Shown: positions 26,247 to 64,000 of the stretch, one piece after another
How positions within the stretch are numbered: position 1 is the stretch's first letter
Layout of the letters: every line of letters starts with the position of its first letter
Source: Cheilinus undulatus
Lineage: Eukaryota > Chordata > Actinopteri > Labriformes > Labridae
Assembly: GCF_018320785.1 (NCBI RefSeq)
Contig: NC_054872.1
Coordinates: forward strand, 40,226,551-40,290,550
Reading direction: 5' to 3'
Length of the DNA: 64,000 nt
Made by a program: the position numbers and the translations under genes
Notes under the pieces: generated by a model
Databases searched by the model: none
Seen by the model: only the letters and a program-made list of their open reading frames with translations
Told to the model about the DNA's origin: nothing

Positions 26247-26985
26247 TATTTTTTTTATTACACTGTTGCCACTTTATACCAATTTGACCAATTTTTAATC
26301 CTTTTTCATCACTATTAAACATCAATGTTGCTAATTTTAGCACATTTTTGCCACTTAAAACCCATTTTATACCCTTTCCACCATTTTATCTGCCTGTTTT
26401 TGTCACTTCTAAACCAATTCTGGCCATTTTCTGCAACTGTTGCCTCATTATTGCCACTATTAACCACTTTTGACACCCCTTTTTGCCCATTTTAACCACA
26501 GTTAACCTATTTTTGCCAGTTCATATCAATTTTTCATCCCAGTCCACCTAATTTCCCTCAATTTTTTTGCACTTTAAAGCCGTTTCAGCCACTTTTTAAT
26601 CCACTTTTCTTGCCAGTCTAATCCATTTTGGCCACTTTTAACCCATTTATGTTCTTTAAAAATCCAATTTCAACACATTTTCCACCATTTTTTGCCATTA
26701 TTCACTGACTTAAGCAACATCTTTTACCCATTTTAAATATATATTTAACAAAAGTTATTCCATTTTAAGCTTAACTTCCCAATGGACCATGATTTTGCAG
26801 GCCCCCAGTTTGGCTGGATCCCCAAAACCTTCCTGTTTATCCCCTCTTATGGGCAGCCTTGTCTCCACATGACTATTCTAGGATGATCATGGCCTCGTTC
26901 AACCACCTTCAGGTACAGTGGAGGTCCCCGGTCTCTGGCACCTTTATTTTGGGGGTCCCAGGCTGAAAAGGTTGAGAACTCCTGT
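26247..26985. mobile_element. hAT-like element with degenerate GGCAAAA/TTTTGCC minisatellite
   Basis: The right end (CCCAGGCTGAAAAGGTTGAGAACTCCTG, 26951-26980) is the complement of the left end of the element in gene B at 34878-35831. The interior repeats variants of TTTTGCCACTTTTAACCCAT over about 500 bp, just as the gene B copy does on the other strand. It is an inverted copy of the same family. Confidence 0.65.
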
Positions 26986-29287: not shown

Positions 29288-29680
29288 TTACCCCATTAAA
29301 TCCTTCACATTGGAATACAACGCCTCCTCCTCCTCCTTTTGTGGGCTGCAATCATCCTTCTCCTCTCCCATCATCCCCTCCTCTACTTCAATTCCCTCCA
29401 ACATTTCATCTTGCTCAGCGCTGTCATTACCCTGACTCTCCTCTGTTTTGTCTCTCTTAATTTCGGCATACTCTGTCTCTGTTGACTCTTGAAAACGCCC
29501 TGCCCTTGCAGGGCTCCTCCTTGCCATCAGAGAGAAGTCAAGGTCTGAATATTCCACATCTCTTGGTTCAACATCAGCACCAGAGGCTGATTGCAAAGCA
29601 GCTTGAGCAGCTTGAGCTCCTCCGTTTGCTTCATCTTGGCTGTGAGTCTCATGGTTTCCCATTGCTGGACCAACATCCAT
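29288..29680 (-). CDS. Gene B ITIM tail exon
   Basis: Phase-0 final exon, 130 residues and stop. Motifs are VEYSDLDF, TEYAEIKR and LYSNVKDL, separated by long glutamate-rich linkers. The stop follows only LMG after the third motif, shorter than in genes A and C, and lies next to the MITE at 28888-29283. Confidence 0.9.
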   Translation of the reverse strand: MDVGPAMGNHETHSQDEANGGAQAAQAALQSASGADVEPRDVEYSDLDFSLMARRSPARAGRFQESTETEYAEIKRDKTEESQGNDSAEQDEMLEGIEVEEGMMGEEKDDCSPQKEEEEALYSNVKDLMG

Positions 29681-32600
29681 CTGTCAAACACAACAAAGAC
29701 ACTACAGTTTGTTTTTGTAACAAGGGTTAATGGCTATTTCTATAGTATTCATCTTTATGATTTAAACCAACCAAATGCTGAGACTTTAATAACAGAAATC
29801 CTGTTTCTTAATTGGCTTAAGTCTGAAAATCACAAAACTGCTGTTAATTCATCAAACTGACCAAGCCTGATTTTATCCTGGTTTTTTGTAAAGATTGTCT
29901 TTGTTTGATATGTTGAGCAGTTTTCATAAATTCCAACTGAAATACAGAGCGATGGAGCCAGTGTTTCCCGCAGGAATTTAGGAGACTATGGTGGGGGGAC
30001 TCGAACAATCTATGGAGGTCTGGGGACATGTTCCCTGAAGATAAATGTGGATGTTTTGAAGTCAAATTGGTTGTACCAGCAAGGAAGTTGGGCTAGACAG
30101 TGTAACAGATGGGTCCAGTTTCTCTGTAGAATTTAGTGTGTTTTTTGGTCAAAATGGGCCACAAAACAATGTTGACTCAAACATATGCACTACTGAACAC
30201 TTTTGTAGCATTTTATTTTTTACCCACAAAGCCTCTGTGTTGTTGTCACTGTTTTGCTTCTGCAGACATTTCCTGAAACGACCCTGTGTTTACAAGATAC
30301 TTTTTCAAAACGAGACAGAAATATATTGTTTTCATCTCTGTGTGATCAAGGCCCAAGAGTGTTAAGACACAAAGATTGGATTTCACTTTACAGGAAGTTT
30401 AAGAATAAAAAGTAACAGTTACCTTGTTTAGGATTGAAATGGGTTGAGTAGTCATCATCTCCAGATTCTCTTGTTCCACATTTCCAGACCTGTTGTCTTT
30501 TTTCCTGCAAAGAAAATTCAGACACACAATAATTTATTAGTAAACAATTCAAAATAAAAGACACCATAAAGAGGGTTTTTTTTTCTACAAGGACACAATT
30601 AAGAATTTTTGATTATTCATGAACTTTGCATTGACACAGTTGGTCCCATGGTGGGTCATATGGCCACTAGGAGGGCACACAGCTATGACAGTGGGCTCAG
30701 TATGATAAGCCACATACTGTCCAACCAATATTTTCTCTGTGTACATTTATGAAAGGGTCATATGTTGATGAGTGTGAGGATGAGTGGGTGGCAGGCTGAA
30801 ATATTTTCATCAGCTAAAGAGAGGCCAGGCAGAAGAATTTTGGGAACCACTGCATTTTCATCTTTAATGTAAGTGGTCTATCACAAAAGATTTTTTTAAT
30901 CGTAATCCTTCCTACTAAGAAGAAAATGACCTATTATATTGTTTAAGATATAACAGATATAAACTGTATTTCGTCTCTAGGCTCGCAGCACAGAAGACAA
31001 TTTCCAAATCCTAAAAACATGAGACAACAGATATAAGGAGAAAACAATTTTTCATCTTGTAATCTTCTGAGCATGCACACTAGACGACTCAGCCAGACTG
31101 AGACCACTGAGACCACACACCTGCTGACCTGCCAACGATCTTGCCTGATTACTTGACTTTAAAAGAAAATCAAACATGGATGTCTATTGGCTTTAACCTT
31201 GCAAAGCAGATGGATACGCCCATTTCCTTGTTTTTCACTGGCGAATTCATCTTGTTAAGCTCCCATCTAAACCGTTTGGGCCCGGTTAGAAAGTGACAGG
31301 ACCAATCAGTGACGAGGGGTATTTCAGGCGCAGCAGAGTTGTGATGTAAACAAGCAGCAGTAAGAGCTGGTGCACTTATGGTGGAAGAGCTTAGCGTGGA
31401 TGCTGCTAAAGCGCCAGTTCTATCAGAACTTGACAACATTTCTTTGTTAAAAGAAGAACAAAGAACAGCAGTGAGTTGTTTTCTTTTCAAAAACGACAAA
31501 AGTCGAGTACTAACATGTCTATAGTCACCATGTTTTGTGTTATTCCACAGTAGCTGCGCACGTGCAGCTCGATTGCAGGTACATCACGTTTTGTTGCTCT
31601 GATTGGCCTGTAGAGATGTGACAGACAAAACGTTCATCCAGTCACACTCCGAGTTTTTTTCAAATCCTCTGCCTTTTCTCAAACGTTTCCTATTGAAGCT
31701 TTCCCAGATGGATGTGTGAAACACATCCATCTGGCGTGTCAGGTTATATGGTCTTGCTGTCCCTACACAATAAGCTGTCCTGGCATGCGTAGCAGCAAAA
31801 ATCAGGACAGCAGAATCAGGATGAAATCCTGGCTGGAATGAAGGTACACTTTTGTTTAGCTTGTGCGGTGAAAATGCATAAGAGCCGGTTGGTGATGCTA
31901 ACCAGTCAGCTCACTCTCATTGGTTGTTGTGGGGATTCTGTCTGAGGCATTTTGACCTCAAATAAAACATGTTTCATATTTATGATTCAGGATTTATGAC
32001 ACAATTTGGAACAGTAAAATTATCATGTTGACATACTTGAGGATTATTCAGACAAATATTCATTTGTGGCAAGCCCCCACTCGGGATACGCCCCCAAGAT
32101 CATCAGGGGAGGAAAATCTGGCCTCAAACTGGTCTTAAAATCTTGTAGTGTTTGGCCAGCCTAAGTGATGCTTCACAGAATCACCAGCCTGGGTTTAAAC
32201 TCCACTGAAGCTGACACAATACTGATTTATTTTCTGTCCTGCCTCATCATCCCAAACCTATGTAAAGACTCAATTTAGTGTTTCAGTGTAAGTGGTTTCA
32301 GAGTGATTTGTGGGATTTTCTTGGGTTTAACACAAACAGATGTTATAATAAAAGGGGAAAAGAGGACAGAATGTTCACTCTGACGGCCAAAATAAAACAG
32401 CAACCACAACAAACTATCAGATACAAAAACCCTCCAGATATATTTTGGAAAATAGAAAAGAATTCACTGTTTTAGTATGTAAAATGAATAGAATACAAAA
32501 ACACAGGTGTGGTACTTTCTGACGGACAGAGGTGTATGGATGATAAAAAGAAGCCCAGATTTGCCAGGAAAATTAATTTGAAAGTTTACCTGCAGTACTT

Positions 32601-35600
32601 TTGGACCAAACAGCAGATGGTTGCTGAAAGAATGACACCAATCAAAAACCCAGTGATGACTTGTAGCCATTTAACAGTTTTCAAAACTGTCTCGAGTGGA
32701 TCTGCAATGAAAGGGAACAGTTTCTTTAAAATAAACAGTTCAAAAGCTGTGATACCTACTACTTTGAATTCATATACATATATATTTATATTCATATTTA
32801 TTTTGAAATACAGAAAATAACATGAATAGCTGATCTTCTGTGGAAAGATTGGTTGTCAGCACTTACACTCTGGTTTTAGCACATCTTTGGTCACATTGTG
32901 TACATTGACTGTCAGGTTCTTTTTTACATTTTCAATGTCATTGCTGCTGATGCACTCTAAAGTGGTGTAGTTCTGATCTTCTAGAGTCACAGTAATGCTG
33001 ACGTTGACTGTGTTGTTGGACTGGCTAGTTGTGAGACAGTACTTGGGGTGGTTCTTCACCAGCGGCCATCTGATGGTTGGTAAAGGAAACCCCTCACTGA
33101 TGCACACACAGGTCAGCTTCTTTGACTGAAGCACACACGTTGAGCTGTTAAAGATCCTTGGTGAAACTGCAACACATGAGAAATATCTCAACATCCTAGC
33201 AAGCAGAGTAAGGTGATAAAAACACAAGTTTTCTCGAAAGGAAACTACTTACAAGCCAGAATCACTTCAGTCTCTGCTGTCAGATTAGAGATCTGATGTG
33301 ATGCTGTGCAGATGTATTTTCCATAATGTTCTGCTGACATGCTGGTGATGGAGAGGTTTGCAGTTCCAGTGCCACGCTTCAGGATTTTATTTGAGCCCTC
33401 TTTGGTCCATGTGATAACAGATGGAGGGAAACTGTCAACACTGCAGGTCAGATTTAGGTCACCACCCTCTTGAACAGCTCTCTTTCCAGTGATGACGAGG
33501 GTCTTGACATCTAAGGGCGACACAAACAGTTATTAGATTTAGAGGGCAATTACTTTATCACATAGGGCCAGGATGGCTTTTTCACTTTAATATATGAAAT
33601 AATCATTTAAAACTGTATTTTTATTTCTGTCCATATTAAACCCTCTGGAGTCTATGGACGTGTTGGTGCATCCAAATCTTGTGACCTATTTAAGATGACA
33701 TAGAAGAAAGATGCAGCTTCAAAAAGTCTCTGTTTCAAACTATATACCAGTTTTCAAATGACGCTGATAGGCCAAGGAAAACCAGACTTATGTTAAATAA
33801 TTTACGCCATGCAATGTTAAATATAACTTTTTTTCATTCATTATTTAAAATGTAACTTTTTTTTTGCATTCTAAGTTATAAAAGTGGTTCATCAAACATG
33901 TTTGTGTTTTTTTTACATTTAAAAAAATCCAACTTTTTCCTAATCGGATTTAATTTTTTTGTGATTTTTGGTCAAAGGTGTTAATACAGTATTTCAAAAT
34001 GGAAAAAATGACTGTAAAATCGCACATGTGGGGATGTACTTAAAGCTAATACCAAACAATGCAAGGTAAACAGTTTTTAAGGTGAATATAAAGGGAAACA
34101 TCAAAAGTACTTAAAAAATTATACCCTTGACCCCAGAGGGTTAAATTTGTTTGATGATCTGAAACATTTAACTGTGAAAAATATAAAAGAAAAAAATCAG
34201 GAAGGAGAAGGGCGTTTTTTACAGCACTGTATATGAAGTCAGTCAGAGGAAGCAGCATAATTCAAAACTTCAACAAGTTTATCTCTCTGCCTCTAAGGTG
34301 GTGTCCTGGACTTTTCTGAGTTTGGTGGCCCTGGCCTGATTCTGCACAATCTCCCACCTGAGAGGAGGGGGTAAACCCCCATGATGTCTCTTTAAATGTC
34401 TTTTGTTGTATTGTGCAGAATCTTCACTGTTAGATTATGGATGGTGGAAGAGACTCCCCCAACATGTCTAATTCTAAATTTGACAGGTGAAGCAGAGAAA
34501 TTACAGAGATGAAGCCCAGTTCAATCAGTTTAAACAACCATAACTGCTTACTGCAAACATTCTGGATGAATAATGATAGAAATGTATCATCCTAGGGATA
34601 TTAAAGAATCCTAAACAAAAGCACCAATCTGATCAAACACCATCAGCAGAGAAGAGGAAAAACACTGCTGAAAAGGATGAAACAGATGAGATAATAAACT
34701 AAAAGTAACAATAGATCTGCTGTTGGGACTGGATGCTCTGTCACTCTTATTTTAAAAGGGATTATTTCAAACACAGAGGAAAGAGGCTCTCTTTTTACTC
34801 ATTTAAAAATGTAAGGACCAGCTACTTTAAAGTGCTATAAGATGCTTAAAAGCAGGACCTCATATTCAGATGATTTACAGCAGGGGTTCTCAACCTTTTC
34901 AGCCTGCGACCCCCAAAACAAAGGTGCCAGAGACCGGGGAACCCCCACTGTACCTAAAGGTGGTTGAACAGCCATGCCAATTAAGAATAGTCATGTGCAG
35001 ACAGTGCTGCCCATAAGGGGGGTTAAAGGGGAAGGTTTCTGGGACCCAGCCAAACTGTGGCCCCATGGAAGTCAGATAAATCATGGCCCATTGTGAAGTT
35101 AAGCTGTGAAAACCATATTTTATATTTGACCTAAATAATAACCACTCTAATCAAAGAAACAAATCTAGTAATGTGTGTAGTAAATAGCCTTCTTAAAATG
35201 AAAATAACTTTAGTAAAAACATATTCAAAATGGGTAAAAACTGCTTAAATTAGTTAGTAATGGCAAAACAGTGGTGGAAAAGGTGTTAAAATTGTATTGT
35301 TAAAGAACACAAATTGGCTAAAAGTGGCAAAAACTAGATAAAAGTGGCAAAAAATAACCAGAAATTGATTAAATTGACAAAAACATGCAAAAAAAAAAAG
35401 TGGTAAAAGTGGATTAAAAAGTGGCTTAAATGGCTTCAAAGTGCAATTAGGTGGACTGGGATGAAACATTGATATAAACTGGCAAAAATGGGATAACTGG
35501 GGTTAAAATAGGCAAAAAAGGGTGTAAAAAGTGGTTAATAGTGGCAATATTGAGGCAACAATTGGCAGAAAGTGGCAAGAATTGGATCAGAAGTGACAAA

Positions 35601-37302
35601 ATCAGGCAGAAAAAAGTGGTGGAAAGGGTATAAGATTAACACAATTGGGTTTTAAGTGGCAATAATGTGCTAAAATTGGCAACATTGGTGTTAAAAGGTG
35701 ATTAAAAGATGTTAAAATTTGTTACATTTGGTTTAAAGTGGCAACAGTGTTATTTTAAAGGCATCTGGTGACCCCCTCTCAGTGTTTCGCGACCCCCAAT
35801 GGGGTCCCGACCCCAAGGTTGAGAACCACTGATTTAGATGACTGCTAAACAGAGCTAGATGATGATAATATAGATTCTTCAGAGTAAAAATAACTGATCA
35901 GTATAAATATTGTTACTCACAGGCCACACTCAGAGTCTCTGTCTTCTCTGTTGTGATGTTGTTTTTGAAGATGACTTTACAGGTTACATCAGTGCCATGA
36001 TGCTCTGCAGAGGGTGTAAAACTCAAAGTTGAGTTGTATCTCTTTGTGACAGCAGTCACAGTCTCAGTGAAAGCAGTGATGTTTCCTGTGATGTGGGAGT
36101 TCTTCTCTCCTCGTCCAATCCTCCAGGTGATCTCAGGAGCAGATCCAGAGCAGAGACCAGGAGCGGTGCAGATCAGTGTGGACTGCTGTCCCTCTGTCAG
36201 AGGAGGAACCATCACTGAGGGCTTCTGGGTCAGAGCTGATGGAGAAGAGACCCAACATTTACTTTGATTCAGGATAAAATAATATAATCTGAGATTTTGA
36301 TGAGCTTATGAGTTGAATTAACAACAGGAAATGCTGGAATTCAGATATGATGCTTACAGAGATCAATACATGCTAAAACATTTTGGTCTCACTTAAGAAT
36401 TTAACATAATGATGTACAGTATGTGTAGGTGAACTGTTTTTGTGTGTCATACCTTTGACAGACACGGCGGTTTTTTTAGTAAACATCCATCCATCTTTTT
36501 TTCCACCAGTCATGGTCCCCTCAGCTCTAAACTGATAATATCCAGAGTCTGACTCAGTCAGGTGGTTGATGATGATGCTGCAGTCCTTCTTGGTCACATC
36601 AGGCTCCAACAGTGACACTCTACCTTTGAACCCAGACTTAACTTTTATTCCAGGCACAGTATTATTGAATATCACGTCTGAGACACCACATTTTGTTGTA
36701 GCTGGTTCACATTTATACCAAACAATATGTTTGGCCGTAAAGGTAGAACTGGTATTAAAAGAACACGGTATCACAACACAGAGTCCAGCCTCTGCTGTCA
36801 CGGTTTCTTTACTCAGATTGATACAGAAGTCAGTCGTTTGGCATGTCCATTGCCTCTCTAATGCACCTGTAAAAACAGAGAGAAATGCAGAAATAAAAAC
36901 ACAGGGTTTGATAAATCTTGGTTAGTTATAAGGTTGGATGCTGCTCCTGGTAGTGCATCAGTAAAACTTTGTTTTAAACAGCTGTAGTCAGCAGCTCTCA
37001 GCAAATGTCACAACATCTCAGCAGCTATCCTATCATTTTATCCAAAATGTGTTTCATTTAAACCAGTTAATCATAAAAGTTTAACCATTAAACACAAGAG
37101 TTACTATGTATAATGACATTTAAAATTTTTGTTTGGCATGTTAAAAAAGAACACATGATCTACATTTTTGTCATTCCAAGTATTTGTCTGTCGTATCCTA
37201 ATTAATATAATGGTCAACATGTCTTTCATAAACATACAGACCTGTATTTGCATTGATGCCTCTCACAGAGAAAAGCACAGTCGCCAAGATGAGAGCAAAC
37301 AT
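29288..37302 (-). CDS. Gene B: Siglec-like inhibitory receptor, V + 3 C2
   Basis: Exons, 5' to 3': signal 37302-37242, V-set 36866-36453, C2 36235-35921, C2 33510-33253, C2 33166-32867, membrane 32701-32590, juxtamembrane 30504-30423, tail 29680-29288. Phases match throughout and the sum closes at 644 codons. The leader starts MFALILATVLFSV. The V domain keeps the Siglec arginine (YYQFRA, Arg134), a G-strand-region tryptophan (Trp147) and an N-terminal cysteine pair (C29, C35). Domain 2 has TAPGLCSGS and the last C2 has LTCVCISEGFPLP. The membrane span is about 462-482. Tail tyrosines are Y558 (VEYSDL, ITIM), Y585 (TEYAEI) and Y636 (LYSNV). It probably binds sialylated glycans and inhibits the cell that carries it, by family knowledge. 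The juxtamembrane exon has NLEMMT, the counterpart of LEMVT in A and C. Confidence 0.9.
31194..31748 (+). mobile_element. Repeat family carrying a helicase-like N-terminal fragment, copy 2
   Basis: Second copy of the family at 4713-5270, in the gene B intron between the juxtamembrane and membrane exons. The 5' block GCAAAGCAGATGGATACGCC and the internal coding remnant align with copy 1, but the ATG has become GTG (TTATGGTGGAAGAGC). The 3' end carries a perfect hairpin, CAGATGGATGTGT then TTC-type loop then ACACATCCATCTG, at about 31704-31733. AACCT / AGGTT bases close both ends. Confidence 0.6.
33546..33600. repeat. Solitary Tc1-like end in gene B intron
   Basis: GGCAATTACTTTATCACATAG and GGGCCAGGATGGC match the right end of the degraded Tc1-like element at 127-1312. 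The same relic sits at the same place in gene D (62396-62470), so it predates the B/D duplication. Confidence 0.6.
33640..34140. mobile_element. MITE flanked by TTAA (CCCTCTGG ends)
   Basis: Begins ACCCTCTGGAGTC after TTAA (33636-33639) and ends GACCCCAGAGGG before TTAA (34141-34144). Inverted termini with a TTAA duplication point to a piggyBac- or Kolobok-type family. A decayed orthologous copy occupies gene D at about 62492-63025. Confidence 0.65.
34878..35831. mobile_element. hAT-like element inserted in gene B after the B/D duplication
   Basis: Begins CAGCAGGGGTTCTCAACC and ends GGTTGAGAACCACTG, with ATTTA on both sides (34873-34877 and 35832-35836). Gene D has the uninterrupted site with one ATTTA at 63763-63767, which fixes the ends exactly. 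Its interior is a degenerate minisatellite of GTGGCAAAAATGGGTTAAAA variants over about 500 bp. Confidence 0.85.
36453..36866 (-). CDS. Gene B V-set Ig exon with Siglec arginine
   Basis: Phase 1-1 exon, residues 21-158. An N-terminal extension with WTCQTTDFC precedes the domain. GLCVVIPC (C50, C55) and KKDC (C116) give the intra-sheet and inter-domain cysteines expected of Siglecs. YQFRA places Arg134 at the sialic-acid salt-bridge position by alignment to mammalian Siglecs (GSYFFR-type motif). KCEP..KC is the loop cysteine pair shared with gene C. Confidence 0.9.
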
Positions 37303-37686
37303 CCTGAGAGACTGAGTCTCTCCCTCCACAGGAAGAACTTTTCTTCTCAGCAGTACAAACTTTGAAGACAAAAATATCCTTCAGTTACTAAAACTCACCC
37401 AGAAACTCCATCAAAGGTGAATTCCAGATTTAAGTACAGTTTTAAAAACAGCCCAGGCAGTCGTATTTTCTGGTCAAACTTCTTCAAGCTACAAATGCTG
37501 CACACATTTTCTTAGAATTTTTTTCATCTGTACTAGAAGCTTTGGATTTAACAGCTCGCAAGATTCTCAAAATAAATATTAACAAACCTCAACATACCAG
37601 ATATTCCCACATTGTGTATCACAAACACTGTACGACTGTTTATTATTACATAAAAATGATAATAAAAAGGGTGAATTCTGTTTTAC

Positions 37687-49894: not shown

Positions 49895-52863
49895 TTCCTC
49901 AGACCCAGCTATGTGTTACTTCTTCATTCCTTCCACATGCATGCTTAAAATACACGTCCTGTGGTTGACATTATGTTTCACATGATTGTGATTTTTTTAT
50001 TAATTTTTTAAAATGTCATTTCAATGCCTTCTTCCAAAGTTGATGGCTTGTTTGAACTATAATACTAAATATATTTTTTCAAATGAGCAGTTTCTACATC
50101 TGCAGATGTGCTTTTTTAACATGGACCCTCAGAAGACTGGCTGTGCTTCATGAAATAATAAATAAACTGTTAAAGATTGTTAAGTGTTTATTTTATCCAG
50201 TAACAAATTTGTATTTTTAATCTTCAAGTCCTCAAAGAATACTCCCTAAGTTTCCTGTTCTTTTGAACCCTCTTAATGACATTACCAAAAAGCAAAAAAT
50301 ATGAACTCTCTAAGGCCAGGCCATTCAACTGGAGGCCCTGGGGCCAGGTCAGGCCCCCAAGGTCATTTTTGTGGTCCTTTAAGTAGACTACTTATTCCTG
50401 AAGATGATCCATACAAGTTAGTTTATAAAACTTAATAAGTTTATGATACTTGTATGATCATTGGCCACCTGGTTGTCGTTGTTCATTTATGCGGCATTTA
50501 GGACACAGCAGCCTTACAGGCTTGTGCACAACAAGAGAGCTAGATCAGCACCACTACTAGGTACATGGATTTTAGGCAAAAAGAAAATAAAATGCCTTTA
50601 ATGATGGCAAAGGCCGTCAAGGTGTGTATGTTTGTGTCAACTGAGGAAGTTAAGGATGAGAAAATTAAAACAGTTTGATTGATTGACTGTAGCTATAGAA
50701 TTATTAAACAGACTCTTGTGTCCTGCCATGTCCCTCAGACCCTTCGTGATGAAGGATGTGATCTTTTTCAGGAACTTGGCCCATTTCCAAAACTAATTGA
50801 GTAGTCCTGCTCTGTTTACCTAGATTCTGAATAAACACACAATACTTGTGTCCTACAGAGAGGATCAGTCCTCAGTGAACAAATCCCAAATCTATTTCTT
50901 ATTGCCTCCACAAATCAACCGTGCAGACTGATGGGTAGCAAGAAACCAGCACTTCACCAAGGTTGTCAAGTGGGAACCCTCCTTTGTCTGTGTTTTGTCA
51001 GATTAGTCCCACGACACCTCCAGAGGACTGACCAGTGATCTCCAGCATCCCAGAGTCTACCCCCTCCCTCAGTGCCAGCTCCCACCATCCACCATGCCAA
51101 CACAGAGACCTCATTATCTTACCTACCTTACCACATGGCCCACACAGTCTAAACAGCACTACCACCTTCAGCAGACCCAGGCTCTGTACATGCCAGCTCC
51201 AGATAGTGACAATGCTGATGCTACTTTCCCTAATGCCACTCATAATTAGAACGACAGGAAGACAATTTTTTCTGGTACAAACATTACATATAAAACTTAA
51301 AAAAGTAAAAATGAGAAAATTAGAAAGAATGGAAGAGAGAGCGAGCTTCGCAGTTGGGGGGAGGATGCTCTAACTCCCCATACTCCCCTACAAGAAGAGT
51401 TAAGGGGTTTCATCAAACTTTATTTTTGCCCCCAGCTGGCATTATTCCTCCTCAACCAAATCCAGTGACTGGCCTGAACTGCTCCATCTGACATCTCCTT
51501 AACTGTCTTTCGCAAATTCTGTCCCTGCACCCCCAGCTCTGGAACCCCTAAAATACACCAGATACGTGTCTGGTCCGTCTCCGCTCCAGCACAGCTACAG
51601 AGCAGATAGGTTTTAGTTTTAGTCAAAGAGAGTGCTTCCATCAGCTCCGCTGCTCTGCATCTCTCTACCGGCAGAGCTCCTGCAGCCCGGAGCCCTCCGC
51701 AGCAGATATCTCACATTTCACCCTTTGCACCCTTAAGCTGGCCTGACTGGTGCCTGCCTAGAAACCTGCCTCCTTTAACTTTCTCTCCCTCCTAAACGAA
51801 CTGAACTGTCCTAATTCCTGCAGTTAGACTTTTCAAACCCTGTTATGCCACCATGTTTATCTATCTTGTGACAAACTGATGTCACACCCTTTAAAAATGT
51901 GCCTCAGGGTTGCTGTCCCTGAGTACAATGGACATGATGGGTCCCTGTCAGGTTCTAATAGAGTAATTTTAACTCTGTCATCATGAGTAACATTATCAGA
52001 CACGTTTCCTTCTTTTTAACTGTAACAAGAGTTTTTTGGCAATGCAAGCAGCATAAGTTTAGTGGATAATCTAACAAAACTTAATGTCATTCATCACAAA
52101 GATAAATGAAACATTCTGTATGTTATGACTGTATTTCCTCTTACTAAATGCAGGTATCAGCTCAGGAAGTACTTCTGTGTATTTGTGCATTTTTTATGCT
52201 TCATACTGTGCGATTTCTGTAGTTTTAGTTCCAATCAATGCCAAAACAGTTTCAGTAATTTGTGATCGACTCCAAACAGTTTAGCACAAGTGACTATCAA
52301 ACTCTACACGGGCTCATGGCAGAAGTGAGAAACATTTAAACACAGATTTTCATTGGTGATTGTACTGACTAAAAACATGAGCTCAGACATCAACATGCAG
52401 AGGAGATTACTTTAAACAAGATCAAAACCAAATTCTCATAAATGCAAATGAAAGCAACCTTGACATAAAGTCAGCTAACATACTGATGCATTGTATCAGT
52501 CATTTGCACATAATACAGCACAACAAATGATGAGACATAATCCCTCATGAAACACACATCTGGCTATTTAAAAAAGTTGAAGAGATTACTTGATATATGA
52601 ACACTGAGGACAATTTAATTTATTATCTGTAGAAATACTGCAGTATAGTCCTATATCAAAGTACCACTGATTCAATTTTTATTGCAGTTTTTCCCATTTT
52701 GGTCAACATAAATGTCTTTCCTACTGCATTTGAGTGTTAAATATTAACTCAATTTTAGCACATTTATCATAACACTATTCAATACATTCATCATAATACT
52801 GACATACAGTTAGGGTTCTTCATAGAGGGGGGAAGTAAAGTACAAATACCTCATTATTGTACA
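49895..52863. other. Gene-free intergenic stretch
   Basis: No receptor exon is seen. The more GC-rich block at about 50990-51780 has open frames on both strands, and the minus frame at 51420-51641 might be part of an old retroelement, but no diagnostic motif is present. Confidence 0.4.
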
Positions 52864-52865
52864 TA

Positions 52866-54483
52866 CAGTTGAAACCAGAAGATTACATACACTATATAAA
52901 AAGGCACATGAACTTTTTTTTCTCACCGTCTGACATTAAATCAGATTAAACTTTTCCTGTTTTTGGTCAGTTAGGATTACCAAAATTATTTCTATTTGCT
53001 AAATGCCAGAATAATGAGAAAAGGACTTTTCTTTAGACAATTTTTATTACGTTCTTTAAAGTCAGAAGTTTACATACACTAAGATTACTATGCCTTTAAA
53101 CAATTTGGGAAAGCCCAGATGATGATGTCATGTCTTTGGAAGCCTCTGATAGGTTTATTAACAACATTTGAGTTAATTAGAGGCACACCTGTGGATGTAT
53201 TTTAAGGCACACCTGAAACACACTGCTTCTTTGTGTAACATCATGGGAAAATCAAAAGAAATCAGCCAAGATATCAGGAAGAGAATTGTGGACTTGCACA
53301 AGTCTGGTTCATCCTTGGGTGCAATTTTTAAGATGCCTGAAGGTGCCACGTTCATCTGTTCAAACAATTATACGCAAGTATAAACACCATGGGAATGTCC
53401 AGCCATCATACCGCTCAGGAAGGAGACAGGTTCTGTGTCCCAGAGATGAACGTGCTTTGGTCTGAAAGGTGCATCTCAACCCAAGAACAAAAGCAAAAGA
53501 CCTTGTGAAGATGCTGGCTGAAGCTGGTAAGAGTGTGTCATTATCAACAGTCAAACGAGTCCTGTACTGACATGGGCTGAAAGGCCACTCTCCCAGGAAG
53601 AAGCCATTACTCCAAAAGAAACATAAAAAAGACAGATTACAGTTTGCAAATGCACACAGGGACAAAGACCTTAATTTTTGGAGACATGTTCTGTGGTCTG
53701 ACGAAACTAAAATTGAACTTTTTGGCCATAATGACCATCGTTACATTTGGAGAAAAAAGGGGGAAGCTTGCAAGCCTGAGAACATCATCCCAACTGTGAA
53801 ACATGGGGGTGGCAGCATCATGTTGTGGGGTTGTTTTGCTGCAGGAGGGACTGGTGCACTTCACAAAATAGATGGCATCATGAGGAAAGAACATTATGTG
53901 GAAATACTGAAGCAACATCTCAAGACATCAGTCAGGAAGTTAAAGCTTGGGCACAAATGGGTTTTCCAAATGGACAATGACCCTAAGCATACTGCCAAAC
54001 TGGTTACAAAGTGGCTTAAGGATAACAAAGTCAATGTTTTGGAGTGGCCTTCACAAAGCCCTGATCTCAATCCCATTGAAAATTTATGGGCAGAGCTGAA
54101 AAGGCATGTGCGAGCAAGGCGGCCTACAAACTTGGCTCAGTTACACCAGTTCTGCCAGGAGGAATGGGCCAAAATTCTTGCAAACTATTGTGAGAAGCTT
54201 GTGGAAGCATACACAAAACATTTGACCCAAGTCATACAGTTTAAAGGCAATGCTACCAAATACTAATGAAATGTATGTAAACTTCTGACTCTCAAGAAAA
54301 TAATAAAAAATTGTCTAAAAAATGATCTCTGTCATTATTCTGGCATTTAGCAAATAGAAATAATTTTGGTAATCCTAATTGACCAAAAACAGGAAAAGTT
54401 TAATCTGATTTAATGTTAGACGGTGAGAAAAAAAAGTTCATGTGCCTTTTTCTGTAGTGTATGTAAACTTCTGGTTTCAACTG
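52866..54483 (+). mobile_element. Near-full-length Tc1/Sleeping-Beauty-type transposon
   Basis: CAGTTGAAACCAGAAG at 52866 is mirrored by CTTCTGGTTTCAACTG ending at 54483, with TA on each side (52864-52865 and 54484-54485). Each inverted repeat is about 200 bp, with a second repeat copy inside (GTCAGAAGTTTACATACAC near 53061 and its complement near 54272), which is the IR/DR layout of Sleeping-Beauty-type elements. Length is 1618 bp. Confidence 0.9.
53243..54266 (+). pseudogene. Tc1-like transposase, frame broken
   Basis: The start MGKSKEISQDIRKRIVDLHK is the typical Tc1 N-terminal DNA-binding domain. A frameshift near 53340 breaks it, and fragments follow in other frames. The last frame (53796-54266) is intact for 156 residues: GGGSIMLWGCFAAGGTG, the second catalytic aspartate in MDNDPKHTAK, and the catalytic glutamate in SPDLNPIENLW. 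The first aspartate lies in SDETKIELF near 53700, in another frame. It is a recent but inactive copy. Confidence 0.88.
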
Positions 54484-54485
54484 TA

Positions 54486-56841
54486 TGTAGATTTTTCAGG
54501 TATTTGTACTTCAGAATTTATTTTTCATACAACTTTTTTACTTTGAGTCCTTACATTTGAACAAAATACAGGATTATTACCTGTTTAAACGTAAAGGAGT
54601 TACAGAAATTGTGAATATAGTTCAGTCGGAATACGATGTTCATAACTCGAAGAGATGCAGAAAGTTTTATGCACTGAGAGCTGCAGAGAGGCTTCTTTGA
54701 AATTTGGATCAACCTAGTGACCCGCCCACTAAGCTCAACTTCCTGTCAGCTAGCTAGCTAGAAATCTGGTTGACAGAAACGTAGCTTCTGCCGGTCAAGC
54801 TCTCTGTCAATCAAATGAGATGCGCCAATCAGTGCGCAGTGAGGTTTTTCCTAAATGTAATTTCAAACAATTGTGGTACAAAAAACTCACCCCTGTACAG
54901 TGAGAGCACGTGAAGACATTAGCTAATGAGACACATTGGGTTTCTTGAACCAGGCTGTAAACCGCTTTATTTCTTGTGTAAATTAACGGCTTTTTAATAT
55001 GTGTTAAGATGGGACTTCTGGTGTTCCTGCAGCCAGCCTCAAGTGGACACTCACCGTATTGCAATTTTTTGCACTTCAGCATTGGCTTCATTTTTCAGGG
55101 CCGGAGGTTTCCGCTTGATCTTTCCTGAAACGATTATGCCATATCCCACTTAACATGCATGTGTGAGCCCAGCTGTGAACAATAATAATGGCAGATTACA
55201 TGATTGTGTTCATGGCGCAGAGGCTACTCAGCCCATTATTGCTCTGACAGCAAAATCTTCTGCTCCTGTTCTATCACTGTGAGCAACAAATGGTCATGGA
55301 GACCTGCATCTGCCACGTTATTAGATCCACCACAGAGTGGAGCAGCCAGGAGAAAGTTTTTGGTATGAGAAAAGTTTTAGGTGCTCTTGCTTACTACAGA
55401 GTTTTCATTCATGCATTCATGCAATCCATTTTGAATGGTCTCTTGCTTACGAGGACATTTCTTGAAACTATCCATTTTTGCTGAGACGTTTTCAAAATGA
55501 AACAGAAATGGAACATTTTGTCTCTGTGTGGAAAAAGCCTGAAACCACATCTGTACAGGTAAGACAGAACAGCCTGTAAAAATAAAAATGATCAATATTT
55601 TCTGGTTTATTGATGTGTGTTGATTAGATTTCATTTAGGCACACAGCTCATCATGATAGATATAATAGATGTGCTTATATATGTATATAAATATACTTCT
55701 TGTAATTCTGAAATGAAATGTAATGTTTTTAAAACCTTTTCCAAGAACCTCTTCGTACATTTTAATACCCTATCGCATTTTGACTCTAACCCATTACATA
55801 AGCAACACATTTACATTTGTGTTTTTGTTCTGATTGCAAGATAAAATGTGACAACATATAAAGAAAATATTGGTAGTATTTCTTATTGTTGTACCCAAAT
55901 TAATGAAGCTTTCATGGAGCATTTTGAGACGAGACTGAGAGAATAGACATGGATTTGATACCATAAATGAGCAGGCAATCCAAAATCTGATTTCTTTTAC
56001 TGAAATAGACAGAAAACAGTCATACTGTAATCTTGAAGCACCTATTTACAAGTTTTGCACTGTAATTAAAACTTAAAAACTGGACAGCTAAGACCTTAGA
56101 GCATTGCATTTCAGATGCTTCAATACTTTTTAAAACCCTAATTTTCACTGAATTGATTTATCAACAGACCCTGCGGATACCCTGATATATCTATTTTATG
56201 AACTATAAACAAATACCCATTTTAAGATGTGTGAACTGAACTTGGAGCTATTTGCTGAAATTGGAAGATATCTTAAATGACAATTTTGGATAGGCAGAAG
56301 ATATTTTCGGACATCTGAAATGTTCTTTTTGACTAGGCGAAATTGAATTACAGGTATCTACAGTTTGAATTCCAGATAGTCAAACTTAACTTTTAAATGT
56401 TAAAACGGCTTGCCATACCTTCATGAGAGTGCAATACCCATTTTCACCGCACAAAGTGACAGCCACTCTGACGCAATCAAGGGGGGCGCTCTTTCACTTC
56501 TGGATAAAACTACCTCTACAAAATAAATAATGGAGAATTAGGACAAAAATCCCTTTAAAACCTGTGGTTGGGCCAATATAGTGCCAATAACGTGTGAACT
56601 TTTTTTTTTTTTTTTTAACAAGGAACCTTTCTGAAAAATCCATTTGTGATATTTTGATCTTCAAAATCAATTGACAGGTTTTATAACACTGTCAACATTG
56701 TGGAAAATACATATATTTTCATAGTTCTAGGTTACGTATTGAAACTTGAGGAATTTAATAAAATGCTAAATAGTGGTGATAAATGCACCCAAGGAAATTA
56801 AATTCGAATATTATCATTATCATCAACATTATTATTATTAT

Positions 56842-58290: not shown

Positions 58291-58399
58291 TTAGTTCACA
58301 CGTTGACAGATCACATCGTACTCTCCTGATGGGTCTGTTTTCTGCAGTGACATGTAAGTTTTATCCTCCTGGTTTGGTTTCACATTTTCTCTTTTATTC
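58291..58399 (-). CDS. Gene D ITAM-like tail exon
   Basis: This 109-nt exon follows a polypyrimidine acceptor (TTTTTCTCTTCAAAG). With the TG left by the membrane exon it completes a tryptophan codon, then reads NKRENVKPNQEDKTYMSL, then QKTDPSGEYDVICQRVN and stop. Exon length (1 + 36 codons), acceptor quality and the two tyrosine motifs together make chance unlikely. Similar TYM/TYT...EYD tails are known in fish Ig-superfamily receptors, by general knowledge of the group. Confidence 0.8.
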
Positions 58400-61300
58400 C
58401 TTTGAAGAGAAAAAAAAGTTACGTGTAATGAAACATGTGTTAGCTTCTCCTACATTAAAAAGACTGCAGAGCATAAAGAGATGGTGTTCTAACATACCAC
58501 AGGAGGATCAGGCTGATTACTAAGACCAGATTCACGATGAGAGACACAGCAGCCACAACCCAGGGAAGAAGTTCATGTAGTCCACCCGACTCTGCTGCAA
58601 GAAAAGACACTGTTTTCAAGATATTAAACTGCTGTGAGTTCATATTTGTACAAAGACCAGTTTTCATTTATCCATATTTTCTTTCCTTTGATAATGAATT
58701 TTTACTTTGTGGCTGTATTTCCACAAATGCTGCAAACTGTGTCAGTGAGCTGCTTAGGTTAGGAGTTTAGAACAAGGGTTTCTGGACTTTTCAGCTCAAG
58801 ACCAAAATGAAAAGTTTGCTCTCTCCAAGGGACCCAAACTCACCATAATACATCATGTATTGCCATAATATCACCAAAAGTAAAATTATTAAAATTTTTC
58901 ATTCTTTCATTAGTTTGTGACACCTCATTTAATTTTCTAACAGCAGGATAATCATTTTGTTGCAATGTGGAACTCATGTTGATCCATTAAACACTGCAAA
59001 TAATAATTAGGCATTTCTAAAACTGTGGATACATTTTTTGTAATATTTTATAGCTGATTTAAGAAAAAAATCTATAGAGTAACTTGGTGTATACACCACA
59101 TCCAACATTTTAGACCATAAAAGGTGTGAATGAAAGACTGTATTTTTAAAACTTTGTAGTAATTGTCCAGTTTTAGCTGTATACACCATTTGTACTGTAT
59201 TGTATTCAACTAAGTCTGTACATTTTTGTATATTTAGTTGCAGAAATAGAAGATTAGTTGGTTCACAATAGGGTTTTTTACTTAAAATTTGTATGGCTTT
59301 CTTTTGAAATAGAAAATGGTTTTAAGAGTATCCTTTGGCTTTAAATGTCTGCAGCTGTTAAATCCATCCCACAAACAATATTAAAATAGTTTTAAAATGA
59401 CTTCACATTTGATCTGTTTTTACAGAAATTTACTGTCAAAATGAGTAGATAGAGGAAAAAAAGAGGCAAAGAGTATCAAAAATTTGTTACAAATGACGAA
59501 AAATAGTGCAACAATAGGAATGAAAAGTGGTTAAATAGAAGAAAAGTGACAAAAATGGATAAAAGAGTGGCACAAAGGGGATAAAAGACATGCAGGAAAA
59601 ATGGTTCAAAGGGGTTAAAGAATGGCAAAAATTGGGGTAAAGAGGCAAAAAGAATCAAAAATGGGTTAAAAGGGGCAAAAATTGGGTTTAAAGTTGCAAA
59701 AAATGTTTTTAAAAAGTAATAAAAACGGGTTAAAAAGTGGCAAAAATAGACAAGGGACAAAATGGATAGGAGTGGCAAAAATGGGTTAAAACATGCAGGA
59801 AAAGTGGTTCAAAAGGGGTTAAATCTTGCAAGATTGGGTTAAAGAGGCAAAAAGAATCAAAAATGGGTTAATTTAAATTTAATTTTCTAACAGCAGGATA
59901 ATCATTTTGTTGCAGTGTGGAACTCATGTTGATCCATTAAACACTGCAAATAATAATTAGGCATTTCTAAAACTGTGGATACATTTTTTGTAATATTTTA
60001 TAGTTGATTTAAGAAAAAAATCTATAGAGTAACTTGGTGTATACACCACATCCAACATTTTAGACCATAAAAGGTGTGAATGAAAGACTGTTTTTTTGAT
60101 ACTTTGTGGTAATTGTCCAGTTTTAGCTGTATACACCGTTTGTACTGTATTGTATTCAACTAAGTCTGTACATTTTTGTATATTTTGTTGCAGAAATAGA
60201 AGATTAGTTGGTTCACGATAGTTTTTTTGTCAAAAACTAGTACAAAATCACAGTTGTGTAGGGCCAATTCTCTGTGACTGTCAGGGGCCCAGAAAGTTCT
60301 GTTGTCAGGCCTGTCTCCTTGTGGCCTTCTGCATTACAGATAATAGGGATAGATCTCACTGGTAATGTCTAAAAATGTCCTGCGTTTTGAAAGAAAATAC
60401 AAATACTACTACAATAATACTTCAATCACACCAAACTATTTAATTTTTGTGTATTTGAAAGTCTGCCCCCCCGAGTTTCTGTTGAGACTAAATCTGGCCC
60501 TTGTGCAAATGGACTTGATGACCCCTGCTCTACACAGTACATCATGTATGGGATGATGAGTGAGTAATCGAGAGTGTACAAAGATTTCTGGTTTAAGAAA
60601 TCTTCAGCTTTTTACAGAATTGTAATAGATCTTGGCATTTTTGCTCTGACATGATTTACATGACATTTCCTATTAAGTTTATTGTCAATGATTACACCTA
60701 AAAATGTATTTTCAACACTGTTTGATTTCAGCTTCATTTATTCTAATTTTATAGCCAAGGTCTGATGCCTGGTTTCCAATAGTAATGCATTTTGTTTAAC
60801 CAAGGTGAAGGGATAATTTATTCGTTCCCCAGTATAACAGATCGTTGTATCATCAGTAAAAAAAATACACTTAAGTGACCAAGAAACCAAATAAATCATT
60901 AATATACAGTATGAACAACACGGGTCCAAGTATTGAACCCTGTGGCACACCACACATAACCTTCAAAAAGGTTGGAGTTTGTGCTCTCAATGTGGACGCA
61001 TTGATGCCTGTCCTCCAAATACCATGAGCCAGCCCTCGGATACCATATTTCTGTAATTTAAGCAATAATAACTTGTGGTCAAAGGTGTCATATGCTTTTT
61101 GTTAATCTAGAAATATCCCGACAGTGAATTCATTTCTCTCTGTGGCATTTGTAATTTGTTCTATGAAACCTATTAGTGCATGTGTTTATCACCTGACATG
61201 TAAGTGATTTAGCTGTTTTCATTTCTATAGGAAATTTTCCAGGCATGACAGATCAATTACAAATATACAGTAAGTTAAAGTCGTAACAATACAATCTATT

Positions 61301-64000
61301 TTTTATAAAATCAAAACCATTCCAGTCAGTTGATTTATTATTTATTTTTGTGCACAATATCAATTATTTCTTTTTGATTGATTGATTTTTGAACACTGAG
61401 TGAGATTTTGTACCAATAACACTACTGTTGACTCTGACTGTAACTAACTTAATTTGCTTAATTTTCCTCCACACTGACATGTGATAGTTAACACTGGATT
61501 TCATGGTATTCCACATAGCTTCTCCAAACAAATGTGCTGATCCCCAAATTTAATGGGAAATTCATGACATTACTGCATTGACCAATTAATAGCTAAGACC
61601 TATTGATTAGTAGAAATTATTGGTGATTCTGATCTAAGAAAAATCAATCAAAAATGGATGAAACCTTGAAAATGGAATATCTAAAATGTCAGCCTGATCT
61701 TCATTGGACTGTAAGGCTGTCATCACTTACCTTCTTTATTTGATGAATTGTTAATGATGACTGTCATGTTCTTTTTTACTTTTCCAATGTCATTGCTGCT
61801 GATGCATTCAAAAGTGGTGTAGTTGTGATCTTTTAGAGTCACAGTAATGCTGACGTTGACTGTGTTGTTGGACTGGCTAGTCTTGCCCCAGTACTTGGGG
61901 TGGTTCTTCACCAGCGGCCATCTGATGGTTGGTAAAGGAAACCCCTCACTGATGCACACACAGGTCAGCTTCTTTGACTGAAGCACACACGTCGAGCTGT
62001 TAAAGATCTTTGGTGAAACTGCAACACATGAGAAATATCTCAACATCCTAGCAAGCAGAGTAAGGTGATAAAAACACAAGTTTTCTCGAAAGGAAACTAC
62101 TTACAAGCCAGAATCACTTCAGTCTCTGCTGTCAGAGTAGAGATCTGGTGTGATGCTGTACAGATGTATTTTCCATAATGTTCTGCTGACATGCTGGTGA
62201 TGGAGAGGTTTGCAGTTCCAGTGCCACGGCTCAGGATTTTATTTGAGCCCTCTTTGGTCCATGTGATAACAGATGGAGGGAAACTGTCAACACTGCAGGC
62301 CAGATTTAGGCCACCACCCTCTTGAACAGCTCTCTTTCCAGTGATGATGAGGGTCTTGACATCTAAGGGCGACACAAACAGTTATTAGATTTAGAGGGCA
62401 ATTACTTTATCACATAGGGCCAGGATGGCTTTTTCACTTTAATAAATGAAATAATCATTTAAAACTGTATTTTTTATTTCTGTCCATATTCAACCCTCTG
62501 GAGTCTATGGACGTGTTGGTGCATCCAAATCTTGTGACCTATTTAAGATGACATAGAAGAAAGATGCAGCTTCAAAAAGTCTCTGTTTCAACTTGTGTTG
62601 AAAACGAGGATTTCAAACTATATACCAGTTTTTAAATTATGTTGACAGACCAAGTAAAACCAGACTTATGTTAAATAATTTACGCCATGCAATGTTGTAT
62701 ACATCTTTTTTTGCTTAATTCGTTAATGCGTTTTAAAAAATTTACCATTTTTATTTGCATTCTAAGTTATAAAAGTGGTTCATCAAACATTTTTGTGGTT
62801 TTCACATAAAAAAAATCCAACTTTTTCCTTCTGTGATTTAATGGGTTTTTTGGTGTGATTTTTTTTCAAAGGTGTTAATACAGTATTTCAAAATGAAAAA
62901 ATAACTGTAAATCACACATGTGGGGAAGAAAATAATACCAAACAATGCAAGGTAAACAGTTTTTAAGGTGAATATAAAGGTAAAAATCAAAAGTACTTAA
63001 AAAATTATACCCTTGACAACAGAGAGTTAAATTTGTTTGATTATCTGAAACATTTAACTGTGAAAAATATAAAAGAAAAAAATCAGGAAGGAGAAGGGCG
63101 TTTTTTACAGCGCTGTACATGAAGTCAGTCAGAGGAAGTAGCATAATTCAAAACTTCAACAAGTTTATTTCTCTGCCTCTAAGGTGGTGTCCTGGGCTTT
63201 TCTGAGTTTGGTGGCCCTGGCCTGATTCTGCACAATCTCCCACCTGAGAGGAGGGGGTAAACCCCATGATGTCTCTTTAAGTGTCTTTTGTTGTATTGTG
63301 CAGAATCTTCACTGTTAGATTATGGATGGTGGAAGAGACTCCCCCAACATGTCTAATTCTAAATTTGACAGGTGAAGCAGAGAAATTACAGAGATGAAGC
63401 CCAGTTCAATCAGTTTAAACAACCATAACTGCTTACTGCAAACATTCCCATTTCTGGATGAATAATGATAGAAATGTATCATCCTAGGGATATTAAAGAA
63501 TCCTAAACAAAAGCACCAATCAGATCAAACACCATCAGCAGAGAAGAGGAAAAACACTGCTGAAAAGGATGAAACAGATGAGATAAACTAAAAGTAACAA
63601 CAGATCTGCTGTTGAGACTGGACGCTCTGTCACTCTTATTTTAAAATGGATTATTTTAAACACAGAGGAAAGAGGCTCACTTTTTCCTCATCTAAAAATG
63701 TAAGGACCTACTACCTTTAAAGTGCTATAAGATGCTTAAAAGCAGGACCTCATATTCAGATGATTTAGATGACTGCTAAACAGAGCTAGATGATGATAAT
63801 ATAGATTCTTCAGAGTAAAAATAACTGATCAGTATAAATATTGTTACTCACAGGCCACACTCAGAGTCTCTGTCTTCTCTGTTGTGATGTTGTTTTTGAA
63901 GATGACTTTACAGGTGACATCAGTGCCATGATGCTCTGCAGAGGGTGTAAAACTCAAAGTTGACTTGTATCTCTTTGTGACAGCAGTCCCAGTCTCAGTG
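58291..64000 (-). CDS. Gene D (partial): Siglec-like receptor with ITAM-like tail
   Basis: Exons seen, 5' to 3': C2 from beyond 64000 to 63852, C2 62362-62105, C2 62018-61731, membrane 58594-58498, tail 58399-58291. Phases (1,1,1,2) match and the tail exon closes at a TAA. The C2 exons are near-identical to gene B (ITGKRAVQEGG, LTCVCISEGFPLP). The membrane exon (LPWVVAAVSLIVNLVLVISL) is unlike those of A, B and C and has no charged residue. The 35-residue tail holds TYMSL and EYDVI, eight residues apart from L to Y, fitting ITAM spacing. Neither tyrosine has an ITIM-type residue at -2 (K and G). It is probably an activating partner of gene B. The signal and V exons lie outside the window. An alternative is a pseudogene or fusion lacking a V domain. 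Confidence 0.82.
58498..58594 (-). CDS. Gene D transmembrane exon
   Basis: Phase 1 to phase 2 exon of 97 nt after the acceptor TTTTCTTGCAG. It encodes AESGGLHELLPW then a hydrophobic run VVAAVSLIVNLVLVISLILL. It has no lysine or arginine in the membrane, so pairing with DAP12-type adaptors is not predicted. It shares no evident similarity with the FLIG-containing membrane exons of genes A, B and C. Confidence 0.82.
58927..60229. repeat. Partial tandem duplication around a minisatellite in gene D intron
   Basis: 58927-59280 and 59877-60229 are near-identical direct repeats offset by 950 bp. Both begin ATTTAATTTTCTAACAGCAG and end GATTAGTTGGTTCAC plus a few bases. Between them, about 59510-59870 is a degenerate minisatellite of GGCAAAAATGGGTTAAA units, as in the elements at 26247-26985 and 34878-35831. 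A hAT-like end (TTTCTGGACTTTTCAGC) is at about 58780. Confidence 0.8.
60700..61112 (-). mobile_element. Non-LTR retrotransposon reverse transcriptase fragment
   Basis: On the minus strand the frame reads KAYDTFDHKLL (motif A region), LQKYGIRG, then CGVPQGSILGPVLFILYIND. After a frameshift, FTDDTTICYTGE follows (motif C, with TDD for the usual ADD). The order matches the palm of a LINE reverse transcriptase. Stops and shifts show it is dead. It lies in the long gene D intron between the last C2 and membrane exons. Confidence 0.75.
62396..63025. repeat. Gene D intron relics: Tc1-like end and TTAA MITE
   Basis: 62396-62470 is the counterpart of the solitary Tc1 end at 33546-33600, and about 62492-63025 is the counterpart of the MITE at 33640-34140, with worn ends (AACCCTCTGG and ACAGAGAGTTAA). 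Shared position shows both insertions predate the B/D duplication. Confidence 0.6.

Follow-up and report, generated by a model that had tools for sequence, protein, structure and literature searches.

A Siglec-type gene with its own ITAM beside MAG in Cheilinus undulatus, a candidate activating partner of an ITIM-bearing neighbour

By what route could a fish Siglec cluster obtain an activating receptor? Activating mammalian Siglecs couple to DAP10/12 through a charged transmembrane residue (PMC7226832; PMC2832619), but a gene in the stretch of Cheilinus undulatus DNA analysed here (64,000 nucleotides of contig NC_054872.1, positions 40,226,551 to 40,290,550; 'the window') has an uncharged membrane span and an immunoreceptor tyrosine-based activation motif (ITAM) of its own. 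We propose that this gene, gene D, probably codes for a Siglec of the CD22/MAG group, with type I membrane topology, and is the activating member of a receptor pair; the inhibitory member would be gene B, at a distance of about 21 kb. Coordinates are in window numbering, exons beyond 64000 were read from the flanking genomic sequence of the same contig, and statements on published systems draw on parts of the sources cited.

Gene D lies on the minus strand as a complete seven-exon frame of 513 amino acids with zero internal stops, its gene model reading signal-V-C2-C2-C2-transmembrane-ITAM. The signal exon (65210-65150) and the V exon (64791-64378) lie beyond the window end and are both open; they are followed by the first C2 exon (C2-1, 64166-63852, with 63852 to 64000 inside the window), C2-2 (62362-62105), C2-3 (62018-61731), an exon for the stalk and transmembrane segment (58594-58498) and one exon for the cytoplasmic tail and stop codon (58399-58291). 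The internal splice junctions are GT-AG throughout, their phases (1,1,1,1,1,2) join, and these match the phases of gene B as far as the first tail exon of B. An initial annotation, made from the window alone, had located the C2, transmembrane and tail exons correctly, and had proposed a look beyond 64000 for the V and signal exons, where stops would tell against the gene; both exons are present, intact, just past the edge. The long intron before the transmembrane exon also carries two direct copies of 353 bp, 96.9% identical (58927-60228), and near 61.0 kb a stretch which by eye, with no search made, we take to resemble a reverse-transcriptase fragment.

The tail reads NKRENVKPNQEDKTYMSLQKTDPSGEYDVICQRVN up to the stop codon, that is YxxL-x8-YxxI (YMSL-x8-YDVI), which falls within the ITAM pattern YxxL/I-x6-8-YxxL/I. 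With K and G at the -2 positions, neither tyrosine stands in an immunoreceptor tyrosine-based inhibition motif (ITIM) or switch motif (ITSM), and translation of the tail exon bears out the earlier description of YMSL, eight residues and YDVI with no ITIM-type residue at -2. On shuffling, the strict pattern appeared in 14 of 100000 versions of the D tail, and in 207, 112 and 19 per 100000 for the tails of genes E, G and H, described below; when the D and E tails were scanned by themselves against Pfam, no family matched. The membrane span, LPWVVAAVSLIVNLVLVISLILLW, has zero charged residues and a single Asn, within a VSLxVN motif whose Asn is common to the spans of D, E, G and H. From the first Trp, near the start, to the Trp at the end, K, R, H, D and E are all absent from these four spans; in gene H an Arg occurs at the outer membrane edge, three residues ahead of that first Trp. 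The basic transmembrane residue of the DAP12-coupled Siglec-14, -15 and -16 is absent from gene D, just as the initial annotation had held.

On its sequence features the ectodomain of gene D is Siglec-type. Compared with solved structures (PDB), its first 12 rows among the best 60 of 78 matches are all Siglecs, namely MAG (101 bits), Siglec-8, Siglec-5, CD22 (66 bits), Siglec-10 and CD33, and the later rows among those 60 hold other immunoglobulin (Ig) proteins and a few more Siglecs. The Pfam model Ig_CD22 is matched at 44.5 bits with a cut-off of 27, general Ig models scoring higher. The Arg of QFRVE in the V domain aligns with the FR of MAG and Siglec-8, where the F-strand Arg is the sialate-binding residue of Siglecs; it is present in eight of nine aligned V domains and missing in gene A. 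Siglecs also have a characteristic cysteine pattern, with an extra Cys in the B strand of the V domain (CxxxPC) and CxxPxxC in the first C2 domain, and the CVVIPC and CTAPGLC of gene D align with the CVSIPC and CMVPDNC of MAG. The V domain of a MAG-like gene beyond the window (gene at about 101027-101428 and lower; V domain 154 bits to MAG in PDB) lies about 36 kb upstream of D, which places genes A to E beside MAG. CD22 is located beside MAG in mammals; gene D shares this position but lacks an ITIM-type inhibitory tail and, having an ITAM only, is not classed as CD22 itself.

Gene B comprises eight exons (37302-29288, minus strand) and encodes a 644-amino-acid product: signal (37242-37302), V (36453-36866, with the Arg in QFRAE), C2-1 (35921-36235), C2-2 (33253-33510), C2-3 (32867-33166), transmembrane (32590-32701), a first tail exon (30423-30504) and a last tail exon (29288-29680), with phases like those of D through the ectodomain and transmembrane segment. 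The ITIM/ITSM tail originally assigned to it was found in the last exon as VEYSDL (ITIM) and TEYAEI (ITSM), together with YSNV, a motif of the Grb2-type YxN kind. Over V and C2-1 the B and D proteins are 89% identical, and the two genes, nearly alike in ectodomain, opposite in tail and located in one cluster, show what defines ITIM/ITAM paired receptors.

This likeness is distributed unevenly. The shared tract covers 32906-37421 on the B side and 61758-65328 on the D side, both on the minus strand, and identities were taken from a piecewise alignment and counted over aligned bases. They are low at the 5' end (74.6% in the 5' flank, 82.0% in the signal exon, 71.1% in intron 1), rise through V (91.5%), intron 2 (94.3%) and C2-1 (98.7%), reach 100% and 95.0% in the two parts of intron 3, the second of which dips to 13 and 18 mismatches per 100, and continue through C2-2 (96.9%), intron 4 (100%) and C2-3 (94.6% as far as 61758). 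Past 61758, a point inside the C2-3 exon that leaves its last 27 nt outside the match, blastn found no match to B in D, and the transmembrane segment and tail of D gave no blastp match to those of B at E up to 10. This break may mark the edge of a conversion or recombination event. Of 2000 shuffles, 0 reached the observed variance per 100 bases and 0 the longest run of identity (233), a comparison that addresses evenness only and to which rate differences could contribute. Without conversion it is difficult to account for introns of 94-100% identity next to one of 71%, and the mosaic is best read as gene conversion. The initial annotation had called the C2 exons of D near copies of those of gene B, as the values for C2-2 and C2-3 bear out, and had seen in gene D a B ectodomain joined to an ITAM tail; the pairing and the opposite tails stand, but the patchy, conversion-like identity does not suit a simple recent copy. 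Within the tract, intron 3 of gene B contains an insertion of about 950 bp (34878-35829) that has no counterpart in D, and parts of which match 26260-26984 in inverted order at 82-86%.

The ITAM tail of that join is real, but it is not a one-off, as the transmembrane-ITAM module occurs also in gene E, in a relic and in two further Siglec-like genes. A genome search with the D transmembrane segment and tail gave eight matches at E up to 10, namely D itself (two exons), the tail of the relic E2, the transmembrane segment and tail of E, two places 330-370 kb away and one on another sequence, C7; the distant matches on the same contig had E values of 8e-4 and 5e-3, and the C7 match (E 1.8) is at chance level. 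The module of gene H, used as a query with one extra Arg at the transmembrane/tail junction (an Arg also present in the G and H rows of the transmembrane, tail and tree alignments, and which leaves the ITAM unaffected), gave six matches at E up to 1: H and G (transmembrane and tail each), the D tail and the E2 tail. Y-x-x-[LI]-x8-YDVI is conserved in all five tail units (D, G, H, the relic E2 and E, whose gene has a stop), whereas the spacer differs at most of its positions. Gene E (68497-74039) has a Siglec-like V domain and the ITAM tail YVSLQRNVLSPEYDVI, its similarity to the D transmembrane exon amounting to 81.8% over 121 bp (a stretch from the 3' part of the exon into the following intron), and no C2-2 match was found for it. 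E2 (67115-67404), between D and E, is a transmembrane and ITAM tail unit in which the tail frame is open and the transmembrane exon broken. The distant matches fall in a second Siglec-like cluster (contig positions 39917589-39928178 and 39956017-39960354), comprising two intact ITAM receptors and an ITIM-type relative. The models of the two receptors, G (390 amino acids) and H (395), are intact, with GT-AG sites and the order signal-V-C2-C2-transmembrane-ITAM. The relative, G2, adjoins G, is 72% identical to G and 71% to H in V and C2-1 protein, and has a different transmembrane candidate and a tail frame with VIYADV (ITIM-type). G or H with G2 may form a second activating/inhibitory pair, of which, with the G2 frame unspliced, we are less sure than of B and D.

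Ectodomain and module appear to have separate histories. In a tree of V and C2-1 with nine rows (V only for MAG), genes A to E are separated from G, H, G2 and MAG with support of 99/98; the other inner forks are unstarred, four of six being open. The ITAM label requires four changes on this ectodomain tree, two of them forced by the starred branches alone; 0% of 200 bootstrap trees needed only one, and the label clusters no better than when shuffled (shuffled mean 2.9; 500 of 500 shuffles as low). The transmembrane segment and tail of D are 45-47% identical to those of G and H, whereas the ectodomains are about 25% identical, a contrast which indicates that the two parts have different histories. 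Judged from sequence, the source of this discordance can be an exchange of exons between the clusters, or an old ITIM/ITAM pair whose ectodomains were homogenised within each cluster, and stronger constraint on the short tail can account for part of it. As two clusters some 330-370 kb apart have ectodomains near to their local inhibitory partners and yet keep the same transmembrane-ITAM unit, we raise the tentative suggestion that one inherited cassette has repeatedly made activating partners in fish Siglec clusters; a built-in ITAM would then be an old teleost solution, perhaps older, and mammals would have re-invented activation through DAP12. We regard this as possible rather than probable.

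If gene D is expressed, its V domain would be expected to bind glycans, sialylated or from pathogens, in the class that gene B would recognise. Clustering would lead Src-family kinases to phosphorylate both tyrosines of YMSL-x8-YDVI, and Syk could then dock through its tandem SH2 domains, resulting in cell activation or engulfment of a target; such signalling would be independent of DAP12 or FcR-gamma. Gene B, engaging the same ligand class and, on this proposal, in the same cell, would oppose D by recruiting SHP phosphatases through its ITIM/ITSM tail. Another possibility is that D is an endocytic or dampening receptor, taken up through AP-2 binding of Yxx-hydrophobic motifs or giving weak inhibitory ITAM signalling. 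Both YMSL and YDVI fit this uptake pattern. Tandem tyrosine spacing matters for tandem SH2 docking and not for AP-2, and the x8 spacing is kept in 5/5 module copies while the spacer changes, which argues against such a role and makes it rather improbable in our judgement, even though internalisation has been discussed as a possible function of the ITAM-like motifs in mammalian CEACAMs (PMC2832619). It might also be that D is a decaying or silent duplicate that yields no protein or has no selected function, as could be suspected from its neighbours, the relic E2 with its broken transmembrane exon and gene E with its stop, and from divergence between B and D at nonsynonymous sites (dN) close to that at synonymous sites (dS). 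We hold this to be more improbable again: the 513 codons run without stop or frameshift although the ectodomain has some 55 nonsynonymous differences from B, the internal splice sites are all intact, and so are G and H.

With regard to origin, the simplest scenario is a single recent tandem copy of the 5' half of B, placed before an ITAM tail and with no later conversion. With a start some 118 bp before the ATG and a single abrupt end within the C2-3 exon, the tract looks as one event would leave it, but divergence ranging from 71% identity in intron 1 to 100% in intron 4 is unexpected from one event unless rates differ strongly, and we think this scenario unlikely. Stretches of 98-100% identity could likewise suggest an assembly artefact, D being a misplaced allele or a collapsed haplotype of B; a transmembrane segment and tail unmatched in B, a divergent intron 1 and 5' flank, and an insertion in intron 3 of B alone led us to reject it, and we give it next to no credence. 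Returning to gene D as the activating partner of B, three findings weigh against that proposal. With all exons compared, B and D have diverged to the same extent, within error, at nonsynonymous sites (55.5 differences over 993 sites) and synonymous sites (16.5 over 303; Fisher p 0.89), which fits relaxed constraint. The V exon is the least B-like of the four Ig exons (91.5% DNA and 82% protein identity), and with 18% of residues differing the ligands of the two receptors may overlap rather than match, or may differ. Gene E has an in-frame TGA (72983-72985) in its C2-1 exon. As to the motif itself, the strict ITAM pattern occurs in 23 of 2511 six-frame open reading frames of a 134-kb region, three of the 23 being the D, E and E2 tails. 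Since ITAM-like patterns, loose or strict, are not rare in such frames, the presence of the motif alone was rejected as proof, and the weight is given to conservation and gene context. For V, positive selection was a separate idea that was dropped (dN 0.098 and dS 0.063, not different; Fisher p 0.53 on rounded counts).

Among known systems, the CEACAM1/CEACAM3-type pairs resemble B and D in joining inhibitory receptors and receptors with a built-in ITAM to near-identical ectodomains, and in CEACAM pairs gene conversion and recombination keep the ectodomains alike while tail exons are replaced (PMC2832619). CEACAMs differ in not being Siglecs and in their eutherian motif, YxxLx7YxxI/M, encoded by a set of four tail exons, where gene D has YxxLx8YxxI on a single one (PMC2832619). 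By analogy, gene D is best read as organised like CEACAM1/CEACAM3 rather than like the DAP12-coupled Siglecs. Siglec-11/Siglec-16 (PMC5701461) and Siglec-5/14 (PMC2832619) resemble B and D as inhibitory and activating Siglecs with ectodomain exons homogenised by conversion, which in the Siglec-11/16 pair goes together with relaxed constraint (PMC5701461). The teleost NILT and a few NITR members are, like D, fish Ig receptors with a built-in ITAM and relatives bearing ITIMs, but they belong to other V-domain families and have one or two Ig domains (PMC3022915). Fc receptors provide a comparable single-chain ITAM and ITIM pair with an unrelated ligand. Fish CD22 and other fish Siglecs share the ectodomain type of D, and genes A to C are of this kind (PMC7226832; PMC12837193; PMC6362898); as far as the portions of the fish papers at hand extend, they describe ITIMs, or Siglec-15 with DAP10/12 (PMC7226832; PMC12837193), and in none of them does a Siglec with an ITAM of its own appear. 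A literature search, with subscription papers and protein databases outside it, found among the matches listed no title or abstract opening that reports a Siglec with its own ITAM, and predicted proteins of this kind may already be deposited in databases. A Siglec with its own ITAM, twinned by conversion to an ITIM partner beside MAG, would, if true, mean that fish Siglec pairing arose by a route parallel to CEACAM1/CEACAM3. Salmon is reported to have unusually many CD22-like paralogues (PMC6362898), and among these poorly understood fish genes gene D offers a concrete activating candidate, and the B/D locus a place where conversion-driven pairing can be compared across species.

The remaining genes of the cluster add some minor observations. 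Genes A and C have ITIM-type tails like that of B, with VDYSNL and TDYAEI in A and VEYASI and TEYAEI in C. The V domain of gene A (20413-20751) reads SYQLIP in place of the F-strand Arg, and its product may not bind sialic acid. At 52838-54511 a stretch that is probably Tc1/mariner-like, no search for it having been made, is flanked by inverted repeats of about 240 bp with 90.9% identity. Downstream of the window, from -23628 to -5853 in the same numbering, lies a further Ig gene, or more than one, in which a V-like domain of distant similarity and a frame containing LNYTQV and IEYSDV were seen.

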